A DNA stretch of 64,000 bases from Halothermothrix orenii H 168 (GTDB lineage Bacteria; Bacillota; Halanaerobiia; Halanaerobiales; Halothermotrichaceae): NCBI RefSeq assembly GCF_000020485.1, contig NC_011899.1, forward strand, positions 1,768,501-1,832,500. The letters are read 5' to 3'. A program made the translations under genes and the position numbers. Below the pieces are notes generated by a model that saw only the letters and a program-made list of their open reading frames with translations, made no database searches and was not told the origin of the DNA. The stretch's first letter is position 1. Each line of letters opens with the position of its first letter. Below, in pieces: positions 5,584 to 16,764 of this stretch.

Positions 5584-6060
5584 TTAAGTATGAGACTTTA
5601 TTTTATTTATAATTTCCGTTGTTGATTTCCCCTTGACTTCCTTAACGAGCTCTACCCGACTACCCAGTTCTTTAACCACCGGCCATTCGGGTAAGGTCTC
5701 CAGGGTATAGTCACCTCCTTTTACATAAACATCTGGTTTGATTTCTTTAATAACATTAGAGCAGGTAAGCTCATCAAATATAAATACATAATCTACCATT
5801 TCAAGGGCTGAAAGTAACTCGGCCCTTTCCCTTTCATTTATAATGGGACGGTTTTCTCCCTTTAACTGACGGACCGAACTATCACTGTTGACAGCCACTA
5901 TTAAAATATCACCAAATGATCTGGCCCTGTATAAATACCGGATGTGGCCCACATGAATGAGGTCAAAACAACCATTGGTAAAAACCAGGGTTTTCCCTCC
6001 CTGTTTTAAGGTTTGAACAATCGTTTGCAAAGAATTTATATCCTGAATTTTATTTCTCAT
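5584..6060 (-). CDS. rfaE2: D-glycero-beta-D-manno-heptose 1-phosphate adenylyltransferase
   Basis: A 158-residue nucleotidyltransferase equal to the C-terminal domain of HldE. It makes ADP-heptose from heptose 1-phosphate and ATP, a precursor of LPS inner core or other glycans. The sequence has FTNGCFDLIHVGHIRYL with the HxGH motif (about residues 37-40) and the closing KGKSTTEIINKI with the STT signature. It overlaps the kinase gene upstream by 11 bases, so the two activities are encoded by separate but coupled genes. It ends the long run that starts in the rod and ring genes. Confidence 0.92.
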   Translation of the reverse strand: MRNKIQDINSLQTIVQTLKQGGKTLVFTNGCFDLIHVGHIRYLYRARSFGDILIVAVNSDSSVRQLKGENRPIINERERAELLSALEMVDYVFIFDELTCSNVIKEIKPDVYVKGGDYTLETLPEWPVVKELGSRVELVKEVKGKSTTEIINKIKSHT

Positions 6061-7045
6061 TTTTTATCACTTCTTCCATTAACTCTCCTGGTTTTACTGT
6101 AGCCACACCTGATTTCCTGACCACAATACCGGCAGCAGTATTGGCCAGATCCATGGCTTCTTCCATGGTTGCCCCGGCACCCAGGGCCAGTGAAAGGGTT
6201 GCTACCACAGTATCTCCGGCCCCGGTTACATCATAGACCTCGGTATAGTTGACAGCTGGAATATGCTGGAATTCCCCTTCCTTATTAAAAAGGGTCATCC
6301 CATCTCCACCCTGGGTTATAAGTAAGTATTCCATATCCATGTGACCAATGATTTCTTTACCGGCTTTAATAACTTCATCTCTGGTCTTAATCTCCCATCC
6401 AACGGCATAACTGGCTTCCTCAAGATTTGGGGTAGCTATCGTAATCCCCTGGTAATCAAGAAGGTTATAACGGGTATCAACTGCAATAAATTTTCCTCTA
6501 CTTCTCCCTGCTTTAATAATTTCCCGTTTAACCCTTTCAGTAAACAAACCATTTCCATAATCAGATATTAAAATCCCATCAACATTTTTAATATTGTCCC
6601 TGACATTTAATATTATTCTTTCTTCCAGGTCCCGGTCAATGGGGGAATTATCCAGGCGATCAATTCTAACCACCTGCTGTTTTACAATACCACCACCACC
6701 GGCCAGTATCCTGGTCTTAACACAGGTAGGCCTGTCCTCAGCAACCACAACACCGTTTACATCCACCCCGTGTTCTTCCAGATAACGGCATAATTTATTT
6801 CCAGGTTGATCTGGTCCTATTATCCCGACCAGATTCACTCTTCCCCCGAGACTGGATATATTATGGGCGGCATTGGCACCACCTCCCGGTAATATTTGCT
6901 GATTATGGTGTCTCAGGATAAGAACAGGTGCCTCCCTTGATATTCTCTCAGGTTCTCCTGTAATAAATTCATCAGCGATTAATTCACCAACAACCATTAT
7001 TTTTATATTATTAAATTGCTGAATATAGCCTGTAAGTTGTTTCAT
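6050..7045 (-). CDS. rfaE1: D-glycero-beta-D-manno-heptose 7-phosphate kinase
   Basis: A 331-residue PfkB/ribokinase-family sugar kinase matching the N-terminal half of HldE, which phosphorylates heptose 7-phosphate at C1. It has the substrate region LPGGGANAAHNISSLGG (about residues 51-67) and the catalytic DVTGAGDT near residue 273. The start at 7043-7045 is chosen because AGGAGG lies six bases upstream; the ORF is open to 7066. Together with rfaE2 it supplies ADP-heptose, which fits an organism with an LPS-bearing outer membrane. gmhA and gmhB are not in the window. Confidence 0.92.
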   Translation of the reverse strand: MKQLTGYIQQFNNIKIMVVGELIADEFITGEPERISREAPVLILRHHNQQILPGGGANAAHNISSLGGRVNLVGIIGPDQPGNKLCRYLEEHGVDVNGVVVAEDRPTCVKTRILAGGGGIVKQQVVRIDRLDNSPIDRDLEERIILNVRDNIKNVDGILISDYGNGLFTERVKREIIKAGRSRGKFIAVDTRYNLLDYQGITIATPNLEEASYAVGWEIKTRDEVIKAGKEIIGHMDMEYLLITQGGDGMTLFNKEGEFQHIPAVNYTEVYDVTGAGDTVVATLSLALGAGATMEEAMDLANTAAGIVVRKSGVATVKPGELMEEVIKNEK

Positions 7046-7055
7046 TAGTTTCCTC

Positions 7056-7604
7056 CTATAAATCAACTTTTATTCCAATATTTAAGTTGATATCATTACG
7101 GTCCCAGTAGGAATTCCCGACCCCGAGAGTCAGGAAAGTATCAGGAGTTACTGGCAGACCAAGGCCAGCTCCATAGACCCAGGCTTTTTCATCAATAAAA
7201 TAATCTATATTCCAGAAATACCGGTTCTGGACCAGATATATCCCTTCACCACTCAGTCCGATGGCCTTACCAAAACCCGATTCATTCAAGCCGGTGGTTA
7301 ATGATAAACCTAATTGTAAACTATAAAGGCTCCTCTTTAAAAATCTTATATTCCAGGTGCCCTGCATCTTTATGTCTTCACCATTATAAACCCCCAGAAG
7401 GTCCAGATTATTAATGTCATCGAGTTTATAACCTAAATCAAGTTTTAAAGAACTTATTGTTGTTCCCTGTCCACTTACTATGTAATGGACAGTATCCAGT
7501 TCAGGACCGGCTGAAGCCCTGATAGAGACTAAAGACATTACCACAAAAACCACGATAAAAAAGATTCCAGCATGTCCCTCTGGCTTTGATATTAACCTTC
7601 TCAT
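7056..7604 (-). CDS. Secreted beta-rich protein, candidate outer-membrane barrel
   Basis: No named family is recognised in this 182-residue protein. It has a Sec signal peptide (hydrophobic core about residues 15-28, cleavage expected after ASA near residue 32). The mature part of about 150 residues is made of short alternating beta-like strands with many Gly, Tyr and Trp, such as YSLQLGLSLTTGLN and DTFLTLGVGNSYW, ending DINLNIGIKVDL. This is the look of a small 8-strand outer-membrane barrel, although it lacks a C-terminal Phe. ATG 7602-7604 has GAGGTG six bases upstream; a GTG at 7613 is less well placed. It lies between an envelope hydrolase-like gene and the heptose genes. Confidence 0.6.
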   Translation of the reverse strand: MRRLISKPEGHAGIFFIVVFVVMSLVSIRASAGPELDTVHYIVSGQGTTISSLKLDLGYKLDDINNLDLLGVYNGEDIKMQGTWNIRFLKRSLYSLQLGLSLTTGLNESGFGKAIGLSGEGIYLVQNRYFWNIDYFIDEKAWVYGAGLGLPVTPDTFLTLGVGNSYWDRNDINLNIGIKVDL

Positions 7605-7656
7605 GGCATTCACCTCAATCGCATATTTTATAGTCTATTTCTGACATGTTGAATTT

Positions 7657-10158
7657 TTATTGTCTGTACTTTATCAATAGACCATTACTGATAAGCCTTT
7701 TATCACTGGGGTTGTTCATTGTATAACCTCTGACCACCATCCGGGAAGAAGCCCCACCATCGAGATTCATGGCCTGTACTACATTATATTTTAACATAAA
7801 CTGGGCCAGTTCTTCCAGAGTCATCCCGATACTGAATCCGGGCTGTCTTCCATCAACAGTAACCATTATTAGATGGTTTCCGGAAGTAATCCCCAGAGCA
7901 GTCCGGGGGGCCCTACCCCTGAGAATATCTGGCTGAAACCCTTCGGCCTTTCCTGTAATATATATTTTACCATTTTTTATCAAAGTAGGTCCAGCTCCGA
8001 GGGCCATCTTTATATCTTTATTTGTGAGGCCCGGGCCGAAATTATTCTGCAATACAACTTTATCTCCCTCTTTAAATAATTTCAGAAACTGTCGGGACTG
8101 CCCATGGGCCTGGATAATAAACCCATTATCTGGAATTACTGTCCCGGGGCTACCGTCTTTTATCGACTGGACTACTCCATTGGAAACTACCAACTCTGTT
8201 ATCCATTCCCGGGCCGGAGGAGCTACCTGGCCATAATATTTGTTTATAATAACCGCTTCATCGGTCCGGGGACGCCTGTTAGCACCTTCAATAAGTATTT
8301 CTTCACCCCTGGTATTGGTTAAGCGGGCTGTCCAGTCTATCCTGTCAATGATTATATCATCAGGAGTTATTACCAGAGCTGTTCTCCCCATAATATCCTC
8401 ACTAACAATCTCGCCATTAATCATAAATAAACCCAGGGGACGGCCTGTATAACTGTAAAATCCCCCGTTAATTCCGGCCAGGGCTTTTTTCCCGGACACT
8501 ACCTGACTCAAATCAGATAGACCAGACAACTTTCCACTGGCCAGAAATGGCTCCACATATAAAAAGTCATTATTCAAATCAAGGTCAAGCATTGTTATTA
8601 ACCGGGGCCCCCACCAGGTAAGCTGTTCAATTTCATAATATCTAAGACCTCTTATAACCCGGGCTTCAACCCTGACCTTTTCTTTTATCTCACCGGTCAG
8701 GTCAATTACTTCTACATTTTTATAATAATGCTTTAATATATCCCTGTAGTCATAGCCCTTTTCAGACAGCTTTAAGGCTCCCAGTTGAGACATCCCAAGA
8801 CCATGTCCCTGACCGACTCCTTTAATTGTCAGCTGATGAAGATACCCGTTTTTAAAACCTTTATCCAGTTCAAATATGGTACTCGGCAACAGGCCCTCAG
8901 TAGTAGAAAAAAACGATCTGATATTATCTTTATAAACAGAATATATTCCAAAATCTGTAACAAAATCCACCCTGATAACCCGGCCATTTTCATCGGTTAC
9001 AGTCTTTATATCCCTTATCCCCGGGCATAATATCTCCAGATCCAGTTTATCCTTTAACAACCCGGTAAGTCTTTTTTCGAGTTCATGCCCGGAAAAAACC
9101 TTATTCCAGATTTTGCTTTTTAACCCGTCAGTAACCGGTTTTAAATAGGGAATCTCTTCTGCCAGGACATCTTTACTGTCAGCGGTCAAACCACCACTAT
9201 CTTCATGGTAAACAGCTTTAATTATCCTCCCATCATAGACCAGGACTTCTCCTGAAGTGAGGTTTACGGCCATCTTTGCCAGATAATTAACCCCCTCAAG
9301 CCCCCGGTAATTATTAAATGTAAAAACCTCTTCATTACCATAAAAAAGCTCATGGAGGATAAAACTCCGGGAAGCCACAGCCTGGGCTTTAGCCGCTTCC
9401 AGATGTTTTCTGTCTTTAATAGACAATTCACCGGCCACTAGGCCATAAAGGAGGTCCCTTAACGGAACCAGGTTATAGACTGTAAGAGAATGTCCGGACA
9501 TAACAATTTCTGTCTTTCCCGGAAAAAGTCCATAATTCTCAATCTTTACCTCTCCCCCTAGTTCCAGGACCTTACCCCTGAAAATAACCTCTTTTTTATA
9601 AAAGATCTCTATCCAGTTACCACTCCGTGGTGTAAAAGGACCGGAAACCACCCAGGTTTCCCAGCCCTCTCCATTCAGTTTACTGGCAACTTCTCCTGCC
9701 TTCTCCCTTGAACTATAATCACCTATCTGGACTTTATACCATTTCCCATCCCGGACAATAAAGACTTTTTGATATCCCGCTTCCTGCAATTGATTTTTTA
9801 CATTCAAAGACTTATTTTTATCAAAACTGGCAAACACCTGGACTCTATATCCCAGGCTACGGGTCGGACCCACACCCGTAACTCTGAGAGTGTAGACCTC
9901 ACCCCTTTTAAGCCTGTAGTTCTTTTTTGTTGTATAATCATATACCTCAATATCAGATTGGGGGGTCAGGGTTAATCTGGTAATATTTTCTTCTATTTTT
10001 ACATTAATAGTTTTACCATCTTCGATAAACTGGGTCATCTCCTGGGATAAGGCAAATACATCAATATTTATAAAAAAAAGGCCGGCCAGGATTACTAAAA
10101 AAATTAAAAGAAAGTGTCCGGGCCAGATAGTCTCATGTAGTATAGCTGTTTTTTTCAC
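7657..10158 (-). CDS. SPOR-SpoIID-phosphodiester glycosidase (NAGPA) fusion protein
   Basis: This 833-residue exported protein has three modules. After one N-terminal signal or anchor helix (about residues 15-36) comes a SPOR domain (about 103-176, YRVQVFASF and WYKVQIGDYSS) that binds denuded glycan strands. A SpoIID/LytB domain follows (about 225-490), with the likely catalytic Glu in GLVAGELS, AAKAQAVASRSF and GHGLGMSQLGA; SpoIID is a lytic transglycosylase acting on peptidoglycan without stem peptides. The C-terminus is a phosphodiester glycosidase domain (about 580-833) with VDGRQPGFSIGMTL and AMNLDGGASS. It starts with GTG after a G-rich ribosome site, 29 bases after flgJ. Confidence 0.88.
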   Translation of the reverse strand: MKKTAILHETIWPGHFLLIFLVILAGLFFINIDVFALSQEMTQFIEDGKTINVKIEENITRLTLTPQSDIEVYDYTTKKNYRLKRGEVYTLRVTGVGPTRSLGYRVQVFASFDKNKSLNVKNQLQEAGYQKVFIVRDGKWYKVQIGDYSSREKAGEVASKLNGEGWETWVVSGPFTPRSGNWIEIFYKKEVIFRGKVLELGGEVKIENYGLFPGKTEIVMSGHSLTVYNLVPLRDLLYGLVAGELSIKDRKHLEAAKAQAVASRSFILHELFYGNEEVFTFNNYRGLEGVNYLAKMAVNLTSGEVLVYDGRIIKAVYHEDSGGLTADSKDVLAEEIPYLKPVTDGLKSKIWNKVFSGHELEKRLTGLLKDKLDLEILCPGIRDIKTVTDENGRVIRVDFVTDFGIYSVYKDNIRSFFSTTEGLLPSTIFELDKGFKNGYLHQLTIKGVGQGHGLGMSQLGALKLSEKGYDYRDILKHYYKNVEVIDLTGEIKEKVRVEARVIRGLRYYEIEQLTWWGPRLITMLDLDLNNDFLYVEPFLASGKLSGLSDLSQVVSGKKALAGINGGFYSYTGRPLGLFMINGEIVSEDIMGRTALVITPDDIIIDRIDWTARLTNTRGEEILIEGANRRPRTDEAVIINKYYGQVAPPAREWITELVVSNGVVQSIKDGSPGTVIPDNGFIIQAHGQSRQFLKLFKEGDKVVLQNNFGPGLTNKDIKMALGAGPTLIKNGKIYITGKAEGFQPDILRGRAPRTALGITSGNHLIMVTVDGRQPGFSIGMTLEELAQFMLKYNVVQAMNLDGGASSRMVVRGYTMNNPSDKRLISNGLLIKYRQ

Positions 10159-10187: not shown

Positions 10188-10556
10188 TTACCTCTGTTGA
10201 CGGCTAAGCTGTTCATAAAGCAGGCGGCTTAAGTAATTAAAGCCCTGTCTGACACTCTGTTTACTTATTTCACCATCTAGCATATCGGTAAATACATCTT
10301 CAGCAAAACCACCATCTATAAGTCCCTTTTCAGGAACCGTATCCCGCATTGTTTTTAACATTTGTTTTACAAATATAGCCACAAACTGGTCAGCTGCCTC
10401 TTTTAATTTCTGATCCCGGGTCCCGTTATTGTTATCATTGACAGCCTTAACCTGTAAGCCTTTATGGTGACTCTTTTCATCTATAGAGTTCAATTTTTCA
10501 TTCATAGAACGGTAGGGTTGTTGCCACCCATTGTTAATATTAAGGTTAATATCCAT
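10188..10556 (-). CDS. flgJ: FlgJ-type rod-binding protein (no muramidase domain)
   Basis: A short 122-residue FlgJ that holds only the rod-binding domain: KLKEAADQFVAIFVKQMLK, then DGGFAEDVFTDML and a C-terminal helix ending LYEQLSRQQR. In the periplasm this domain caps the growing rod. In enteric bacteria a C-terminal glucosaminidase opens the wall; here it is absent, and the SpoIID-type fusion immediately downstream is a plausible separate wall-opening enzyme. AGGAG at 10566-10570 suits either ATG 10556 or GTG 10559. It belongs to the flgF-flgG-flgA-flgH-flgI-flgJ run. Confidence 0.88.
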   Translation of the reverse strand: MDINLNINNGWQQPYRSMNEKLNSIDEKSHHKGLQVKAVNDNNNGTRDQKLKEAADQFVAIFVKQMLKTMRDTVPEKGLIDGGFAEDVFTDMLDGEISKQSVRQGFNYLSRLLYEQLSRQQR

Positions 10557-10579
10557 CACAATCCACTCCTACTATATAA

Positions 10580-11731
10580 TTATATCAGTTCTACCCTGGC
10601 ATGCAAAGCCCCGGCTCTCTTAATAGCCTGAATAATCCCGATAATATCCCGGGGACTGGCCCCGATTGCATTTAAGGCTGCCACCAGGTCACTGATCCTG
10701 GCATTACGGGGAATAACCATCATATGCTGCTCTTCTTCTTCAACCTGGATTTCAGTTTCAGTAGTTACCTCAGTTTCTCCATCTGTAAAGGGTTCGGGCT
10801 GGGAGACATTTTCCCGGGAAGTTATAGTTACAGTCAGATTACCATGGGAGACAGACACCGTTGAAATCCTGACATTATGGGTAAAAACAACCGTCCCTGT
10901 CCTTTCATTAATAATTATTCTGGCTTCTGTACCGGCCCTGACCTGGAGATTATTAATCTTGGCAATAAAATCAACCACATTATTCCGGTATTCGTCAGGG
11001 ACTGTTACTTCTATTTCCCGGGCATTTATAGCCCTGGCCAGTTTATCAACTCCCGGAATAAATTGAAATTGCTGGTTGATAGCCATGGCTACAAAATTGG
11101 CTGTTTCAAAATTATTCTGTTCCAGAATGAAGGTCAGTTCCTCATTATTGAGTTCCATATCCACCGATCTTTCAACTATAGCCCCGTTAGGAATCCGGGC
11201 TACCGTTGGATGATTTTGTCTGACCTGATTTCCTCCCTGGCGGACATTAAAACCACCAATAGATAAAGGTCCCTGGGCCACGGCATACACATCACCATTG
11301 GGGGCTTTCAGTGGAGTCATAAAAAGAGTCCCCCCCTGTAAACTCCTGGCATCCCCGATTGAACTTACTGTTATGTCAATCGTATCCCCCGGCTGGGCAA
11401 AGGGAGGTAGCTTGGCAGTAACGACAACCGCAGCTACATTCCGGGCCCTGACCTGATCCGGAGTAACATTTATACCAAAGTGTTTCAACAGATTGGCATT
11501 ACTCTGAATGGTAGGTTGAAATCTACTGCTATCTCCGGTCCCTGCCAGTCCAAACACCAGTCCAAACCCGCTTAACTGGTTATATCTGACCCCCTCTATC
11601 CTGGTAATATCACCAATAGACACCAGGGGGTCCTGAGTAGTTAACGCAAAAGCAGGCAGGGTTGCCAGTAATATTATAAGTAAAAACAGGATATGTTGAA
11701 AAAGATATCTCAATCTATATGCAAAGGTCAT
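10580..11731 (-). CDS. flgI: Flagellar P-ring protein FlgI
   Basis: A 383-residue FlgI, the periplasmic subunit of the P-ring that serves as a bushing for the rod at the peptidoglycan layer. A signal peptide (residues 1-29, ending PAFA) precedes the conserved VSIGDITRIEGVRYNQLSGF and GLVFGLAGTGDSS. The length is near the family norm of 365-380. P-rings are absent from monoderm Firmicutes, so this gene marks an envelope with an outer membrane. It is 20 bases from flgH and 20 from flgJ. Confidence 0.95.
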   Translation of the reverse strand: MTFAYRLRYLFQHILFLLIILLATLPAFALTTQDPLVSIGDITRIEGVRYNQLSGFGLVFGLAGTGDSSRFQPTIQSNANLLKHFGINVTPDQVRARNVAAVVVTAKLPPFAQPGDTIDITVSSIGDARSLQGGTLFMTPLKAPNGDVYAVAQGPLSIGGFNVRQGGNQVRQNHPTVARIPNGAIVERSVDMELNNEELTFILEQNNFETANFVAMAINQQFQFIPGVDKLARAINAREIEVTVPDEYRNNVVDFIAKINNLQVRAGTEARIIINERTGTVVFTHNVRISTVSVSHGNLTVTITSRENVSQPEPFTDGETEVTTETEIQVEEEEQHMMVIPRNARISDLVAALNAIGASPRDIIGIIQAIKRAGALHARVELI

Positions 11732-11751
11732 TGACCTTGACCCCCTCTCTC

Positions 11752-12330
11752 CTAAAAAATCCAGTTCATAATTCTTTCAAACAAACCCGGTTTCTGTTTT
11801 TCGGTAACAATTCCTTCCCCTTCAAATTCAATCGAAGCCTCAGCCACTTTAGTCGACAGGACTGTATTATCCAGGGTAACATCTTCAGGCCTGATAATAC
11901 CTGATAGTTTTATATACTGTTCTTCACCATTTATTTTAATTGTTTTCCGGCCAACAATCCTGAAATTACCACCGGGAAGAATCTCAACAATCTGGGTTGT
12001 AAGGTCTGCTTCAATAATACCACTCCGCTGGGTCTGACCATCGGCCTGACCCTCATCAGAATAACTAAAACCAAAGGCCTTAATAAAATCAAAAATACCC
12101 AGTCCAGGCCCGGCATCAATATTGCTTTCCTGGCTGGTGGAAGTATTGGCACTCTGGACAGCACTGGAATTCTCTTCAATGACTACTGTAATAACATCCC
12201 CGACTTTAAATTCCTGACGATCTTCATAGATACTGGCCGATTCGTCAGACCAGAGTGAATTGTTATCAGCTCCAGTTAGCGGACTAACCAGTAACAAAAG
12301 ACAGACCATAAAAATCAAGCTTTTTTTCAT
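11752..12330 (-). CDS. flgH: Flagellar L-ring protein FlgH
   Basis: A 192-residue FlgH, the L-ring subunit that passes the rod through the outer membrane. Typical motifs are SLWSDESASIYEDRQEFKVGD, DVITVVIEENSSA and GNFRIVGRKTIKINGEEQ. The protein has a Sec signal peptide (cleavage expected near LTGA-DNN, residue 21), but no lipobox: the only early Cys, at position 10, is preceded by Val. Classical FlgH is a lipoprotein, so outer-membrane attachment must work differently here. AGGAGG precedes the ATG. Confidence 0.94.
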   Translation of the reverse strand: MKKSLIFMVCLLLLVSPLTGADNNSLWSDESASIYEDRQEFKVGDVITVVIEENSSAVQSANTSTSQESNIDAGPGLGIFDFIKAFGFSYSDEGQADGQTQRSGIIEADLTTQIVEILPGGNFRIVGRKTIKINGEEQYIKLSGIIRPEDVTLDNTVLSTKVAEASIEFEGEGIVTEKQKPGLFERIMNWIF

Positions 12331-12348
12331 AGGAATTACCTCCTGTAA

Positions 12349-13359
12349 TTAGCGGACGACCCTGACCAGTCTCGAATTAATAACCCTGGCTTTAAATTCA
12401 TAACCGGTTTCAGGGTTTATAACCTTTACATAATCGCCCACCCGGCCACTACCCAGGGCCTTAACACTGGTAGAGACCTTAACATTCCTGACAATAACCT
12501 CTGCTTCTACTATATCCCCCCAGTGTATGACCACTGGTTGCTCCAGGTGATCAGTAGTCAGTATCTCTCCCTTCTGTAAAGGGATCTTAACAATGGAATA
12601 TGACAGCCGGGGGTCATTAAAATCATTTATAATCTCTCCCCTGACTCCAGTTATCTTCTCAGTTGTCAGGGCCAAATCCTCTTTACAGATATTGCTCCCT
12701 CTTTTTATATTCCGGGTCGCTACAAGGACTTTCATCCTGAGTTCAACTTTATAACCTAAATAGATACGCCGCCACACCTTACCATTAACTATAATTTCAA
12801 TGGGAAGGGAGATATTTCCGATTAATTTATCCGGATCCTCCTCGAGAAATTTTAAACTATATTCCCCATCCGGTATTACTACATTCCGGGGGGTAATAGT
12901 AGGGGTTATAGCCACCCCTTCTGCCCGGGGGGCCAGTTTATTTAATATAAATTGACGCCCCTCCTCCAGTAGCTTTTCCCCCTCTATTTCTCTACTGGAG
13001 GTTTTTACAATAACAACTTCAGGGACCATGAGCTTGATGTCGATAAAACCCTTTTCCTTTAATATAAGGGATATTAACTCCCGGGTTATTTCCCGGAAAT
13101 AGCCGGGTAAGGGGGCCCGTCCCAGACTAATTTTATTTAATTCAGTTAGTTTTTGTCCACTGACACCCGTAAAGCTACCTATATCACCAAGGTAAATTTG
13201 GGGAGAGGAAATAATGACCTCAGTCCTACTTATCTTATAAATTATCTCCTCCCCGGCCAGGATATCAGCAGATAAAGTCACTAATAATAAAACTGTTACC
13301 AGCAGCAGCAAAATTAATCTGGATATTTTAACACCCTTCTGTCCGGTACGCTTTACCAT
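12349..13359 (-). CDS. flgA: FlgA, P-ring assembly chaperone
   Basis: A 336-residue periplasmic protein with a signal peptide or anchor (about residues 14-35) and a C-terminal SAF-type FlgA domain (about 205-336: ATRNIKRGSNICKEDL, PLQKGEILTTDHL, GDYVKVINPETGYEFKARV). FlgA helps FlgI polymerise into the P-ring. It is longer than the 220-residue enteric FlgA because of an extra N-terminal segment, as in several diderm non-Proteobacteria. It precedes flgH and flgI in the same run. Confidence 0.9.
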   Translation of the reverse strand: MVKRTGQKGVKISRLILLLLVTVLLLVTLSADILAGEEIIYKISRTEVIISSPQIYLGDIGSFTGVSGQKLTELNKISLGRAPLPGYFREITRELISLILKEKGFIDIKLMVPEVVIVKTSSREIEGEKLLEEGRQFILNKLAPRAEGVAITPTITPRNVVIPDGEYSLKFLEEDPDKLIGNISLPIEIIVNGKVWRRIYLGYKVELRMKVLVATRNIKRGSNICKEDLALTTEKITGVRGEIINDFNDPRLSYSIVKIPLQKGEILTTDHLEQPVVIHWGDIVEAEVIVRNVKVSTSVKALGSGRVGDYVKVINPETGYEFKARVINSRLVRVVR

Positions 13360-13478
13360 AATTGGTCCCTACTTTATCATGGAGTTATTTAAACACAGGT
13401 ATCTTAAGCCCGTATATCTTAAACCCGGGTATAATACTAAATCAACCAGTAAACCAAATTCAACTCAGGAAATCAATT

Positions 13479-14267
13479 TTACCGGCGCAACTGGGATGCA
13501 GTTCTGAGCATTTCATCAGCTGCCTGAATAGCCTTGGAATTAATTTCATAAGCCCGCTGGGCAGCAATCATATTTACCATTTCTTCGACAACCTTGACAT
13601 TGGACATTTCCAGAAAACCCTGGGCAATGGTTCCAAACCCGGGACTACCCGGAGTTCCTACAATAGGATCACCGGAGGCCACGGTTGGTTTGAACAGGTT
13701 CCGTCCAATACTATTCAAACCGGCTGGATTGGAAAACCGGGCAAGTTCAATCTGCCCTATCTGCTGGGGCTGATTACTGCCATTAATCTCAACAGCTATG
13801 GTACCATCTGAAGTAATACTGATACTGCTGGCGTCTTCCGGAATATATATCTCGGGTTGAATAGGATAACCATCAGAAGTAACAATCCGACCCATACTGT
13901 CCCTCTTTAAAGAACCATCTCTGGTATAGGCAAGGGTTCCATCGGGCAACAGAACCTGAAGGAAACCATCACCTTCAATTAAAATATCCAGGGGGTTATC
14001 AGTATTCTGAATGTTCCCCGGTGAAAAAATCTTCTGGGTCGCTGAAACCTTAACACCATGACCCACTTCTATTCCAACTGGAATTTGCCCTCCCTGGCTG
14101 TTTGGTGTCCCCGGTTGCCTGATATGCTGATACATCAGGTCCTGAAAATTAACCCGGGTTTTTTTAAATCCAGTGGTATTGACATTGGCCAGGTTATTTG
14201 AAATCGTATCAATATTCGTCTGCTGGGCATCCATTCCTGTTGCCGCAGTCCATAAAGCTCCGATCAT
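13479..14267 (-). CDS. flgG: Flagellar distal rod protein FlgG
   Basis: A 262-residue rod protein starting [19 protein letters not shown], with the rod/hook signature [24 protein letters not shown] (about residues 23-47) and the C-terminal helix [25 protein letters not shown]. The body contains [11 protein letters not shown] and TSDGYPI, typical of FlgG. It forms the distal rod inside the P/L rings. It is preceded by the related flgF and a structured 227-base spacer. Confidence 0.92.
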
Positions 14268-14494: not shown

Positions 14495-15241
14495 TTAACC
14501 GAGCTTACCAACATTATTAACAGCCTTACTCAGAGTTTGATCAGCATTTTTAATAACCTTCTGGTTAACCTCAAAGGCGCGATTTACCTCTATCATTCTG
14601 ACCATCTCTTTAACAATATTAACATTCGATGTTTCCAGATAACCCTGTTTAATCTGATAATCACTGGCCTGGATTTCCCGGATTCCTTCATTAACATATA
14701 AGTTTTCTCCAATTTTCCTTAATCCCTGACGATTTTCAAAGTCTACAATTAAAAGGCGATCCCCTTCAAGATTATCGAGATATAACTGACCATCTGTATT
14801 AATACTAATATTACGCCCCCTGATGGTCTGGAGAGGACCCCTTTCACCAAGAACCGGGTATCCCTGCTGGGTAACAATCTGACCCTGTTCATTGACAGTA
14901 AAATTGCCATTCCTGGTATAACGACGTCCCCGGGGAGTCTCAACTACGAAAAACCCGTTGCCATCAATGGCCACATCCAGGGGATTACCGGTATGGTTCA
15001 TCTGTCCTTCTCTAAAGTCGGTATAGTCTTCTTCAATTTTAACACCGGTCCCCAGCTCCCCTAGAGGGGTAGCCTGTCCTTTTTCAAGGCGTGAGATAAA
15101 AACCTCTGGAAAGGAAACCTGAATACCTTCATCCCTTTTATAACCTGCTGTATTAACATTGGCCAGATTATTGGCAACAAGCTTCATCTTCCTCTGGTTG
15201 GTTACCATACTGGAAGCAGCAGTATAGATTCCTTTAATCAA
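14495..15241 (-). CDS. flgF: Flagellar proximal rod protein FlgF (FlgF/FlhO-type)
   Basis: A 248-residue paralogue of FlgG and first gene of the rod/ring run. It starts MIKGIYTAASSMVTNQRKM, carries [16 protein letters not shown] (about residues 25-40), GFFVVETPRGRRYTRNGNF, and the helix MVRMIEVNRAFEVNQKVIK at the C-terminus. The TTG at 15239-15241 is taken as start because GGGGGTG lies just upstream; the GTG at 15250 falls inside that ribosome site. In Bacillus the matching pair is flhO-flhP. A 223-base AT-rich spacer upstream probably holds its promoter. Confidence 0.88.
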   Translation of the reverse strand: MIKGIYTAASSMVTNQRKMKLVANNLANVNTAGYKRDEGIQVSFPEVFISRLEKGQATPLGELGTGVKIEEDYTDFREGQMNHTGNPLDVAIDGNGFFVVETPRGRRYTRNGNFTVNEQGQIVTQQGYPVLGERGPLQTIRGRNISINTDGQLYLDNLEGDRLLIVDFENRQGLRKIGENLYVNEGIREIQASDYQIKQGYLETSNVNIVKEMVRMIEVNRAFEVNQKVIKNADQTLSKAVNNVGKLG

Positions 15242-15464
15242 TTTTTTCACCCCCTTTTAAATATTTTTAAACCTTTATCTAACTTTTTTTAGATAAACAA
15301 ACTCCATATTTCTATAAACAATTTAGAATAATTGATTATCAACAGAAGTTTCAAAAGGTGTTTTATATACATTTTTAAATCAAGCCTTTTAAAAAGCCCT
15401 TTTATTAGACCATCTGTAAAATTTTTAAAACCAGATACAAAATAACTGACTTCTACTGTTTTTT

Positions 15465-15863
15465 CTACTTAATTATTATTTTTGACAAAATATTTAAAAT
15501 ACCTTCTTTTTTGGCAAAAGTATATTCCCCTGCTTTAATTCGGGACTCAAGTCGGAACAGGTTAATGTATTTCAGAAATTCCTGACTCTCTCCCAGCCCT
15601 TTATCAGCCAGAATCCTGGCCACTTCGAGACCGGTTGCCCCTCTGGGTATCTTAACCTCTACAAATTCTGGTTTTTCTTCAAATTTATATTCAAGTTCCC
15701 GATGGGTAAGGTCAAAACTATCAATATCATATATAGCTGGAGATGGGTATGCGGCTGTAGAATCTTCAGCAAAAACCAGGAAAATACCACTCCCAACCAG
15801 GATAACCCCGGCGATTATAATTAAATCACTTATAATTGTTTTCCTGAAATCAAATTTAACCAT
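15465..15863 (-). CDS. Small membrane protein with MltG/YceG-like LysM-type module
   Basis: A 132-residue protein with one membrane helix (about residues 12-32) and an outside domain (about 68-132) beginning VEVKIPRGATGLEVARILADKGL and including RIKAGEYTF. This matches the small LysM-like module at the N-terminus of the endolytic transglycosylase MltG, but the catalytic domain is absent. It could bind glycan strands at the flagellar base. ATG 15861-15863 has GAGGT nine bases upstream, and the gene overlaps the preceding swrB-like gene by eight bases. It is the last gene of the sigD block. Confidence 0.7.
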   Translation of the reverse strand: MVKFDFRKTIISDLIIIAGVILVGSGIFLVFAEDSTAAYPSPAIYDIDSFDLTHRELEYKFEEKPEFVEVKIPRGATGLEVARILADKGLGESQEFLKYINLFRLESRIKAGEYTFAKKEGILNILSKIIIK

Positions 15864-16437
15864 CTTCACCGGACCTCTTTCCTTTATATAATCTAAGTAT
15901 TAGCCTGGTCTCCCGGATCCCTAAATCAAGCTTTTTAGCAATTTTTTCAGGGGAATACCCCTGTTCAGAAAGGGCAATAATGTCACGGTATTTCTCAGGA
16001 AGATGTTGCCCCTTAAGTTCTTCATAGGTTTTATAGAAGATATCATTAAAATGAACTTTCCTGTCCTGGTCCTCATAAGCCTCCAGGTTCCTAACTGCCT
16101 TTTTGATTTCATCTTCTTTTCGCTGGATTTCAGCCAGGATAACATCCAGGTTCTGACTAATGTTTTTAAGCCGTTGAACCCTTTCCAGAAAATCAGTATC
16201 TTCTCTTATATCATTTCCTGCCACAGAAGGACCGGTGGTATCTCCATCAGTAGTATCCTTTTTAGTTTCTTTTATAATATCTTCATCAGTATCTTCTACA
16301 ATACCATCTGCAGTAATTTTCCTGGTGGCTGCTTCTGTTCTATAGATAAAAACCTTAATCTGCTGGTACCCTCTGTATTTAAAATAAAAACCAAGCACAA
16401 TAAATAAACTACCTGCCAAAATCAAAAACCAGCCCAT
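15856..16437 (-). CDS. SwrB-like membrane protein (DUF6115/DUF2802-type C-terminus)
   Basis: A 193-residue protein with an N-terminal membrane helix (residues 2-20), an acidic spacer, a coiled coil (about 83-120) and a helix-turn-helix-like end (about 150-185, IIALSEQGYSPEKIAKKLDLG). The same architecture and position, shortly after sigD at the end of the big flagellar run, belong to Bacillus SwrB/YlxL, which helps activate the export apparatus. Sequence similarity outside the C-terminal domain is low, so SwrB-like is a context-based call. Confidence 0.68.
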   Translation of the reverse strand: MGWFLILAGSLFIVLGFYFKYRGYQQIKVFIYRTEAATRKITADGIVEDTDEDIIKETKKDTTDGDTTGPSVAGNDIREDTDFLERVQRLKNISQNLDVILAEIQRKEDEIKKAVRNLEAYEDQDRKVHFNDIFYKTYEELKGQHLPEKYRDIIALSEQGYSPEKIAKKLDLGIRETRLILRLYKGKRSGEDG

Positions 16438-16452
16438 TTTACCACTCCCGTT

Positions 16453-16764
16453 TCAAACCTTAACATCGATAAAAAAACCCTTACCATCATCAGGACGGTG
16501 TTTGTCTTCATTATCACTGTTATTATTTTGCTCCTTATTACCCTGCCGGCCGTTATTATTAGATTCCTTTTCTTCATCCCTTATTCTGGCTTCTTCTGAT
16601 TCTGTATTCTCATTGACCTTTTGCTGTCTCTGCTTTTCCTCTACCTGGTTTTGCTGGGCCAGCTGTCCCTGTTGCTGGACATCATGAAGCTGCTTTATTT
16701 GATGGATTTTATCGACCTGAAGGGACATGGGTAAATTGGTATGGGGGTTAATAGGGTGAGTCAT
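16453..16764 (-). CDS. Short, charged low-complexity protein of the flagellar run
   Basis: This 103-residue protein is rich in Gln, Asn, Glu and Lys and is probably disordered, with a long acidic and basic middle (about residues 40-90). It ends GKGFFIDVKV, a short hydrophobic tail also seen in small unnamed proteins at this place in other Firmicute flagellar operons. There is no signal peptide or membrane helix. GGTGGTGA precedes the ATG. The function is not known. Confidence 0.6.
   Translation of the reverse strand: MTHPINPHTNLPMSLQVDKIHQIKQLHDVQQQGQLAQQNQVEEKQRQQKVNENTESEEARIRDEEKESNNNGRQGNKEQNNNSDNEDKHRPDDGKGFFIDVKV

Follow-up and report, generated by a model that had tools for sequence, protein, structure and literature searches.

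A predicted peptidoglycan-targeted phosphodiester glycosidase with exchangeable front domains, an apparent member of the outer-membrane locus in diderm Firmicutes

Within a window of 64,000 nucleotides (positions 1,768,501 to 1,832,500 of contig NC_011899.1, NCBI RefSeq assembly GCF_000020485.1) from the 2,578,146-base genome of Halothermothrix orenii H 168, we analysed a gene for an 833-residue protein that joins a SPOR domain, a SpoIID lytic-transglycosylase-like domain and a NAGPA phosphodiester-glycosidase domain. Our favoured explanation, which we regard as evenly balanced, is that this protein would be a periplasmic, peptidoglycan-targeted phosphodiester glycosidase, probably acting on the sugar-1-phosphate diester of a glycopolymer at the wall. 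Comparison with other genomes indicates that the gene outlives flagella and that a counterpart carrying an AMIN domain in place of SPOR and SpoIID occupies the same locus in Negativicutes. The conserved outer-membrane locus of diderm Firmicutes seems to include a peptidoglycan-targeted NAGPA enzyme whose front domains can be exchanged, and this conserved place among envelope genes holds more interest than the fusion of the domains.

Results

The gene and its parts are arranged as follows, in window coordinates.

7657..10158, minus strand: SPOR-SpoIID-NAGPA gene, an open reading frame (ORF) with a GTG start, 833 amino acids
10069..10158, minus strand: N-terminal hydrophobic helix, residues 1-30, a predicted signal peptide or membrane anchor (sequence and model)
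9646..9852, minus strand: SPOR domain, residues 103-171 (Pfam and fold)
8698..9495, minus strand: SpoIID lytic-transglycosylase-like domain, residues about 222-487, with E244, R264, H318xxSGG and G451HGxGMSQ
7663..8691, minus strand: NAGPA phosphodiester-glycosidase domain, residues about 490-832, with N564, R592, R752, D769, R771, N798 and D800

All three domains of the 833-residue protein scored far above chance. Pfam matched SPOR (PF05036) at residues 103-171 with 43.4 bits against a cut-off of 21, SpoIID at 222-308 with 38.9 bits against 23, and NAGPA (PF09992) at 656-829 with 154.5 bits against 25, and the NCBIfam model SpoIID_LytB (TIGR02669) covered residues 228-484 with 158.2 bits against 83.3. 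The AlphaFold2 model of the protein (mean predicted local distance difference test (pLDDT) 86.7, predicted template-modelling score 0.72) placed a helix at residues 13-30, where the sequence is hydrophobic. Its SPOR part resembled 1x60 (Z 11.1) and the RlpA SPOR domain with denuded glycan (6i09, Z 10.1), its SpoIID part 5i1t (Z 18.2) and 4rwr (Z 16.1), and its NAGPA part the Bacteroides ovatus structure 3ohg (Z 31.2 over 239 residues) and 6pku_A (Z 28.9, root-mean-square deviation 2.3 over 229 residues); sequence matches to solved structures agreed with these assignments. Sequence and model together give the protein a helix for export or anchoring, followed by a SPOR fold of a denuded-glycan-binding type and by SpoIID and NAGPA folds, the last of these with an invariant signature. 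The preliminary description of this DNA had proposed the union of the three domains, and the ORF, the Pfam and NCBIfam matches and the fold matches bear it out.

Known systems match the protein in parts. The NAGPA or DUF2233 enzymes, namely the vertebrate uncovering enzyme (6pku, 6pki, 6u11) and 3ohg, share the fold (Z 26.6 to 31.2), and the motifs RTA..G, DG[RQ] and NLDGG align with the characterised vertebrate enzymes, but the H. orenii protein differs from them by its fusion to SPOR and SpoIID and by its bacterial envelope context. For the C-terminal part, the closest folds over the whole region were those of Slr0280 of Synechocystis (5h3k, Z 33.4) and BPSS2145 (6ozd, Z 37.8), which leave the N-terminal parts unmatched. 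With the SpoIID lytic transglycosylases (4rwr, 5i1t and chlamydial SpoIID) the protein shares the fold, the GHGxGMSQ motif, found here together with HxxSGG, and the position of the catalytic glutamate: E244 is the aligned counterpart of E101 in Clostridioides difficile SpoIID, given as catalytic in PMC6221140, as E88 is for Bacillus subtilis SpoIID in PMC6635528. Unlike them, it stays below the cut-off of the sporulation equivalog TIGR02870 (123.1 against 234.75 bits), and the true SpoIID equivalog of H. orenii is a separate gene (G000:C1:1903797, 335.8 bits against the same cut-off). Homologues are not limited to sporulation loci, the loci across the order Halanaerobiales not being specific to sporulation, and we ruled out a sporulation role on these two grounds; the chlamydial septal SpoIID offers a precedent for SpoIID outside sporulation (PMC6635528). 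Pattern scans for promoters and terminators and a tRNA scan gave nothing relevant to the role of the protein, and the available portions of the literature on SpoIID, NAGPA/DUF2233 and phosphodiester glycosidases in envelope contexts (including PMC11488536 and PMC12419801) gave no account of a SPOR-SpoIID-NAGPA protein.

The NAGPA part is constant across Halanaerobiales. In a search of the class Halanaerobiia, the C-terminal half of the protein turned up in 37 of 38 Halanaerobiales genomes, H. orenii counted, the exception being G042 (80% complete). The 36 other loci were fetched and their 36 proteins extracted, giving 37 with H. orenii; alignment A1 holds 36 of the 37, with G028 left out as identical to G020. 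N564, R592, R752, D769, R771, N798 and D800 are identical in 37/37 orthologues. Pfam recovered NAGPA (PF09992) in 36/36 and SPOR in 35/36 of the orthologues scanned. The C-terminal half of SpoIID is retained in only three of the 37 (H. orenii, G009 and G032). In the G016 orthologue (L044 8640-10526) the SPOR stretch is gone and the rest is kept.

Most orthologues are 620-760 residues long and have no stretch equivalent to residues about 310-455, where only 11-24 of 146 alignment columns are filled in 34/37. A glutamate stands at the catalytic position of C. difficile SpoIID in 5/37, and R264 is conserved in all 37. The GHGxGMSQ motif is complete solely in H. orenii, reading GSGLGLSQ in G009 and GHGMGLPL in G032, which has also lost the catalytic glutamate, and among the 37 every checked motif is intact in H. 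orenii alone. The claim that both catalytic signatures are intact accordingly holds for H. orenii, but in none of the other 36 orthologues does it hold for SpoIID; as a general rule the dual cutter falls, the SpoIID part being lost or altered in those 36 and the NAGPA residues invariant. These patterns suggest that NAGPA is the lasting core of the protein and that SpoIID has mostly decayed in its relatives. The three full-length proteins do not form one group on the NAGPA tree, and their SpoIID cores are closer to each other than to three other SpoIID-like loci of H. orenii; together these two observations point to repeated loss of SpoIID from a full-length ancestor, which would be the simplest reading of the sequences. 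We did not favour a paralogue as the source of the SpoIID core by gene conversion, given that the full-length cores lie nearer each other than to the tested SpoIID-like loci, all of them in H. orenii.

The counterpart in Negativicutes occupies a similar place with another front domain. Among 150 Negativicutes genomes drawn from the larger group, 131 carry a homologue (E 1e-20 or better), and we examined neighbourhoods in 40 of these 131, hand-picked for long contigs and to include a divergent group. In one Negativicutes locus, flgI and flgJ are followed by AMIN-NAGPA and then by genes for a biotin/lipoyl-like protein, an S55 peptidase and MlaE. A script count placed flgJ strictly adjacent upstream in 18/40 loci, and three further loci have the flg cluster upstream with a spurious ORF between or flgJ uncalled (21/40 in all); S55 or MlaE lies within four genes downstream in 38/40. 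An S55 (SpoIVB-type) peptidase-domain protein sits constantly between AMIN-NAGPA and MlaE (L103 2830-4710, and other Negativicutes loci). Pfam found AMIN in 38 and NAGPA in 40 of 41 Negativicutes proteins, and SpoIID in none of the 41. The seven signature residues are kept in 34/41, except that R592 is His in two of these; in the other seven proteins (L186-L192) the signature is broken, with ING, APRT, DGR and NLDGG changed. In L186-L192 the gene with the broken NAGPA part still sits before the S55 gene, and the genomes are of about 2.0-2.5 Mb with a divergent LCP only. Halanaerobiales and Negativicutes present a mirror image: SpoIID decays in the former, NAGPA in one subgroup of the latter.

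The published outer-membrane locus of diderm Firmicutes has the same surroundings. According to PMC5007114 (Antunes et al. 2016), the flgFGAHIJ cluster lies in a conserved envelope locus of both Halanaerobiales and Negativicutes, and PMC10665443 reports the MlaEFD-TolC-TamB arrangement in all Negativicutes. Our locus shares with that of PMC5007114 the flgF-flgG-flgA-flgH-flgI-flgJ cluster and other envelope genes, but PMC5007114 names hypothetical proteins, and its main text contains neither 'phosphodiester' nor 'glycosidase'. The AMIN-NAGPA proteins of Negativicutes and the SPOR-NAGPA proteins of Bacillaceae and Nostocales resemble the H. orenii protein in placing NAGPA behind a peptidoglycan-binding module; the Negativicutes proteins also share its genomic slot but have no SpoIID domain that we found. 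In 37 more NAGPA proteins from beyond the order, taken from 34 of 53 non-order loci and three class loci as in alignment A2, Pfam found AMIN in eight, SPOR in four and SpoIID in none. A NAGPA tree split 31 other sequences from a set comprising Negativicutes, Halanaerobiales, family f9, Vampirovibrionales/Melainabacteria and one Clostridia row (support 81/76). The shared slot and the moderate tree support together suggest that the NAGPA gene of these groups goes back to one ancestor and that its front domains would have been exchanged.

Around the gene, the window holds the following neighbours.

5584..6060, minus strand: heptose-1-phosphate adenylyltransferase (rfaE domain II), 198.4 bits against a cut-off of 181.5
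6050..7066, minus strand: heptose-7-phosphate kinase (rfaE domain I), 341 bits, just below the cut-off of 345
7056..7613, minus strand: orf185, a predicted signal peptide and 10-strand outer-membrane beta-barrel
10188..10559, minus strand: flgJ, 123 amino acids, rod-binding domain only, no muramidase domain (Pfam)
10580..14267, minus strand: flgI, flgH, flgA and flgG, the rest of the P/L-ring and rod cluster that ends at flgJ
14495-15250: flgF, named, as was flgG, from sequence and gene order and from PMC5007114

The flagellar gene flgJ lies immediately upstream in H. orenii, 29 bases away, and flgI, flgH and flgA were identified by Pfam. In neighbour counts made by hand from the locus listing of 37 loci, flgJ was directly upstream in 13/37, a count in which the contig or fetched stretch ends upstream of the gene in G015, G028, G034 and G040. 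FlgI was found in 26/38 genomes of the order and flagellin in 24/38; five genomes (G034, G038, G039, G041 and G043, each at least 90% complete, G043 with 6% contamination) have neither FlgI nor flagellin and keep the gene. Because these five flagella-less genomes retain it, flgJ is a neighbour and not a partner, and they led us to rule out a flagellar role as the main function. The gene is not tied to flagella with its hydrolase part intact either, SpoIID being lost or altered in the other flagellated species. The preliminary description had looked to the flagellar neighbour for an explanation of the protein, which these counts do not uphold.

A steadier neighbour is orf185, the next gene downstream in 34/37 loci of the order. 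It has no Pfam or NCBIfam match, and its model (pLDDT 89.4, ten strands) matched the outer-membrane barrels Pla (Z 18.6) and OpcA (Z 17.3), a designed 10-strand barrel (Z 14.9) and, by Foldseek, the KdgM porin; it also resembled soluble barrels of the nitrobindin type (Z about 12). We read orf185 as a membrane barrel because of the stronger barrel matches and the signal peptide; alignment A3 holds the orf185 of the window and 26 of its 33 matches. The heptose kinase gene overlaps orf185 by 11 bases and lies within two genes downstream of the SPOR-SpoIID-NAGPA gene in 25/37 loci. At window 5584-7066 the kinase and the adenylyltransferase are two separate, overlapping genes; in other bacteria they form the single protein HldE. 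Between flgF and a DUF342-like gene, window 15465-16764 encodes a short MltG-like protein (134 amino acids) and two unnamed proteins, named from their letters only; these small genes are found again, in unchanged order, in the flagellar loci of other Halanaerobiales.

For the substrate we compared the distributions of LpxC and LCP with that of NAGPA. LpxC is present in 55/59 Halanaerobiia genomes, including 13/13 of families f10 and f11, in which NAGPA occurs in 0/13; with LpxC and no NAGPA in these families, lipopolysaccharide (LPS) does not predict the enzyme, and we ruled out its presence as a predictor. In family f5 (G033-G038), unlike most of the order, LpxC is weaker in G033 (238 bits) and G038 (197 bits), lies in two pieces in G035 and G036, and went undetected in G034 and G037. 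LCP (PF03816) is likewise present in 55/59 Halanaerobiia genomes, f10 and f11 included. Most Halanaerobiales, along with f9, have a second, divergent LCP (about 60-90 bits) that f10 and f11 lack. At least two LCP matches were found in 30/44 NAGPA-bearing versus 0/15 NAGPA-less Halanaerobiia genomes; we gave a second LCP copy little weight as a predictor of NAGPA because the pattern follows family lines.

In 60 Negativicutes genomes we called LCP canonical when the best match had E 3e-46 or better, the other set having E 1e-24 or worse. All genomes with an intact NAGPA part also have a canonical LCP (34/34), and in the 19 genomes without one NAGPA is dead in seven and undetected in 12. On an rpoB tree of 59 genomes, made without G202 (no rpoB match), the 19 form a single clade (Shimodaira-Hasegawa-like approximate likelihood ratio test 100), so that they represent a single joint change and one evolutionary contrast, and we discount for this reason the Fisher test of LCP against NAGPA (p about 1e-10). 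The joint change is consistent with NAGPA depending on a polymer made by LCP but is no proof of it, and a wall glycopolymer substrate is favoured on weak, non-independent evidence.

Discussion

We propose that the SPOR domain, or AMIN in the Negativicutes counterpart, would bring the enzyme to peptidoglycan, SPOR guiding it to glycan laid bare where cells divide or the wall turns over. There the NAGPA part would act on a glycopolymer bound to peptidoglycan or lying close to it, hydrolysing a sugar-1-phosphate diester at its C1-O bond. Its most probable target would be the link between sugar-1-phosphate and carbon 6 of N-acetylmuramic acid (MurNAc), which is the product of LCP ligases; cutting it would free the polymer and leave MurNAc-6-phosphate. 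In H. orenii, lytic transglycosylation by the intact SpoIID part probably cuts denuded strands as well. That reaction yields 1,6-anhydroMurNAc and requires a free MurNAc C6 hydroxyl; with that need, and with the 6-phosphate that NAGPA would leave, the two activities could not simply follow one another on a single residue, in keeping with how easily SpoIID is lost. Each would instead work alongside the other to clear a region. The released glycan could exit through the small outer-membrane barrel presumably encoded next door by orf185.

Several observations weigh against this explanation. The favoured activity, like the enzyme activity of the family, is a prediction. All 13 genomes of f10 and f11 have LCP and no NAGPA, so LCP does not demand the enzyme, and three genomes (G036, G037 and G040, 76-90% complete) have NAGPA and no LCP match. 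Seven Negativicutes genomes of 1.3-2.0 Mb have a canonical LCP and no detected NAGPA homologue, and the LCP link, as one evolutionary contrast, cannot reach significance in a sign test. The tree support that joins the NAGPA parts of Halanaerobiales and Negativicutes is only moderate, and the front domains of the two classes differ. To our knowledge, no wall glycopolymer is known in H. orenii. The word 'teichoic' is likewise absent from the main text of PMC2626281.

Other explanations fit parts of the same evidence. The SpoIID-bearing protein could cut the peptidoglycan hole for the flagellar rod, as FlgJ here has no muramidase domain; the adjacent flgJ, the SpoIID part intact in H. orenii, flgJ upstream in 13/37 order loci and the flg cluster upstream in 21/40 Negativicutes loci would all suit such an opener. 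However, every other orthologue, the remaining 12 with an adjacent flgJ among them, has lost or altered SpoIID, five flagella-less genomes retain the gene, and the Negativicutes counterpart has AMIN with no SpoIID seen, so we find this role very improbable. Alternatively, as the preliminary description proposed, SpoIID and NAGPA might form one coupled wall hydrolase, of which H. orenii would keep the ancestral working form, as the intact motifs of both parts allow and as the mutual likeness of the three full-length SpoIID cores, which fits an old fusion, would lead one to expect. We consider such a dual machine distinctly unlikely: the loss or alteration of SpoIID in 36/37 orthologues implies that coupling is not required, and NAGPA would not restore the free C6 hydroxyl that the lytic transglycosylase needs.

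Remodelling of LPS or another outer-membrane glycolipid, in which NAGPA would strip a sugar phosphodiester from the LPS core or an O-polymer together with the barrel and heptose genes, draws on the adjoining orf185 (34/37), on the heptose kinase within two genes (25/37), and on the Negativicutes counterpart beside MlaE in the published outer-membrane gene cluster (PMC5007114, PMC10665443). It is nonetheless unlikely in our judgement, LpxC being present in 55/59 Halanaerobiia, among them all 13 f10 and f11 genomes without NAGPA, and SPOR and AMIN both indicating peptidoglycan and not lipid. That the protein mainly holds peptidoglycan as a structural adaptor, with enzyme activity secondary or absent, would accommodate the seven Negativicutes proteins that have no NAGPA signature and whose gene is still in the same locus; the signature residues, identical in 37/37 of the order and kept in 34/41 Negativicutes (R592 being His in two), make it highly improbable.

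The peptidoglycan-targeted glycosidase that we favour can be placed in a wider proposal, which we put forward tentatively and hold to be rather doubtful: that an ancestral enzyme of the outer-membrane locus of diderm Firmicutes edits teichoic-like, phosphodiester-tied glycopolymers beneath the outer membrane, that lineages exchanged its targeting front, either AMIN or SPOR plus a lytic transglycosylase, that the enzyme died where the canonical LCP was lost, and that it may serve as a marker of a wall chemistry common to monoderm and diderm Firmicutes.

The protein is a case of two enzyme parts in one chain of which one is conserved and the other decays, and a warning against reading function from a flagellar neighbour, since the gene stays after the flagella go. 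If our favoured explanation is true, it would suggest what is done by an envelope gene widespread in Negativicutes and Halanaerobiales, groups through which the loss or retention of the outer membrane in Firmicutes is studied, and a phosphodiester-linked wall polymer would be expected under an outer membrane.

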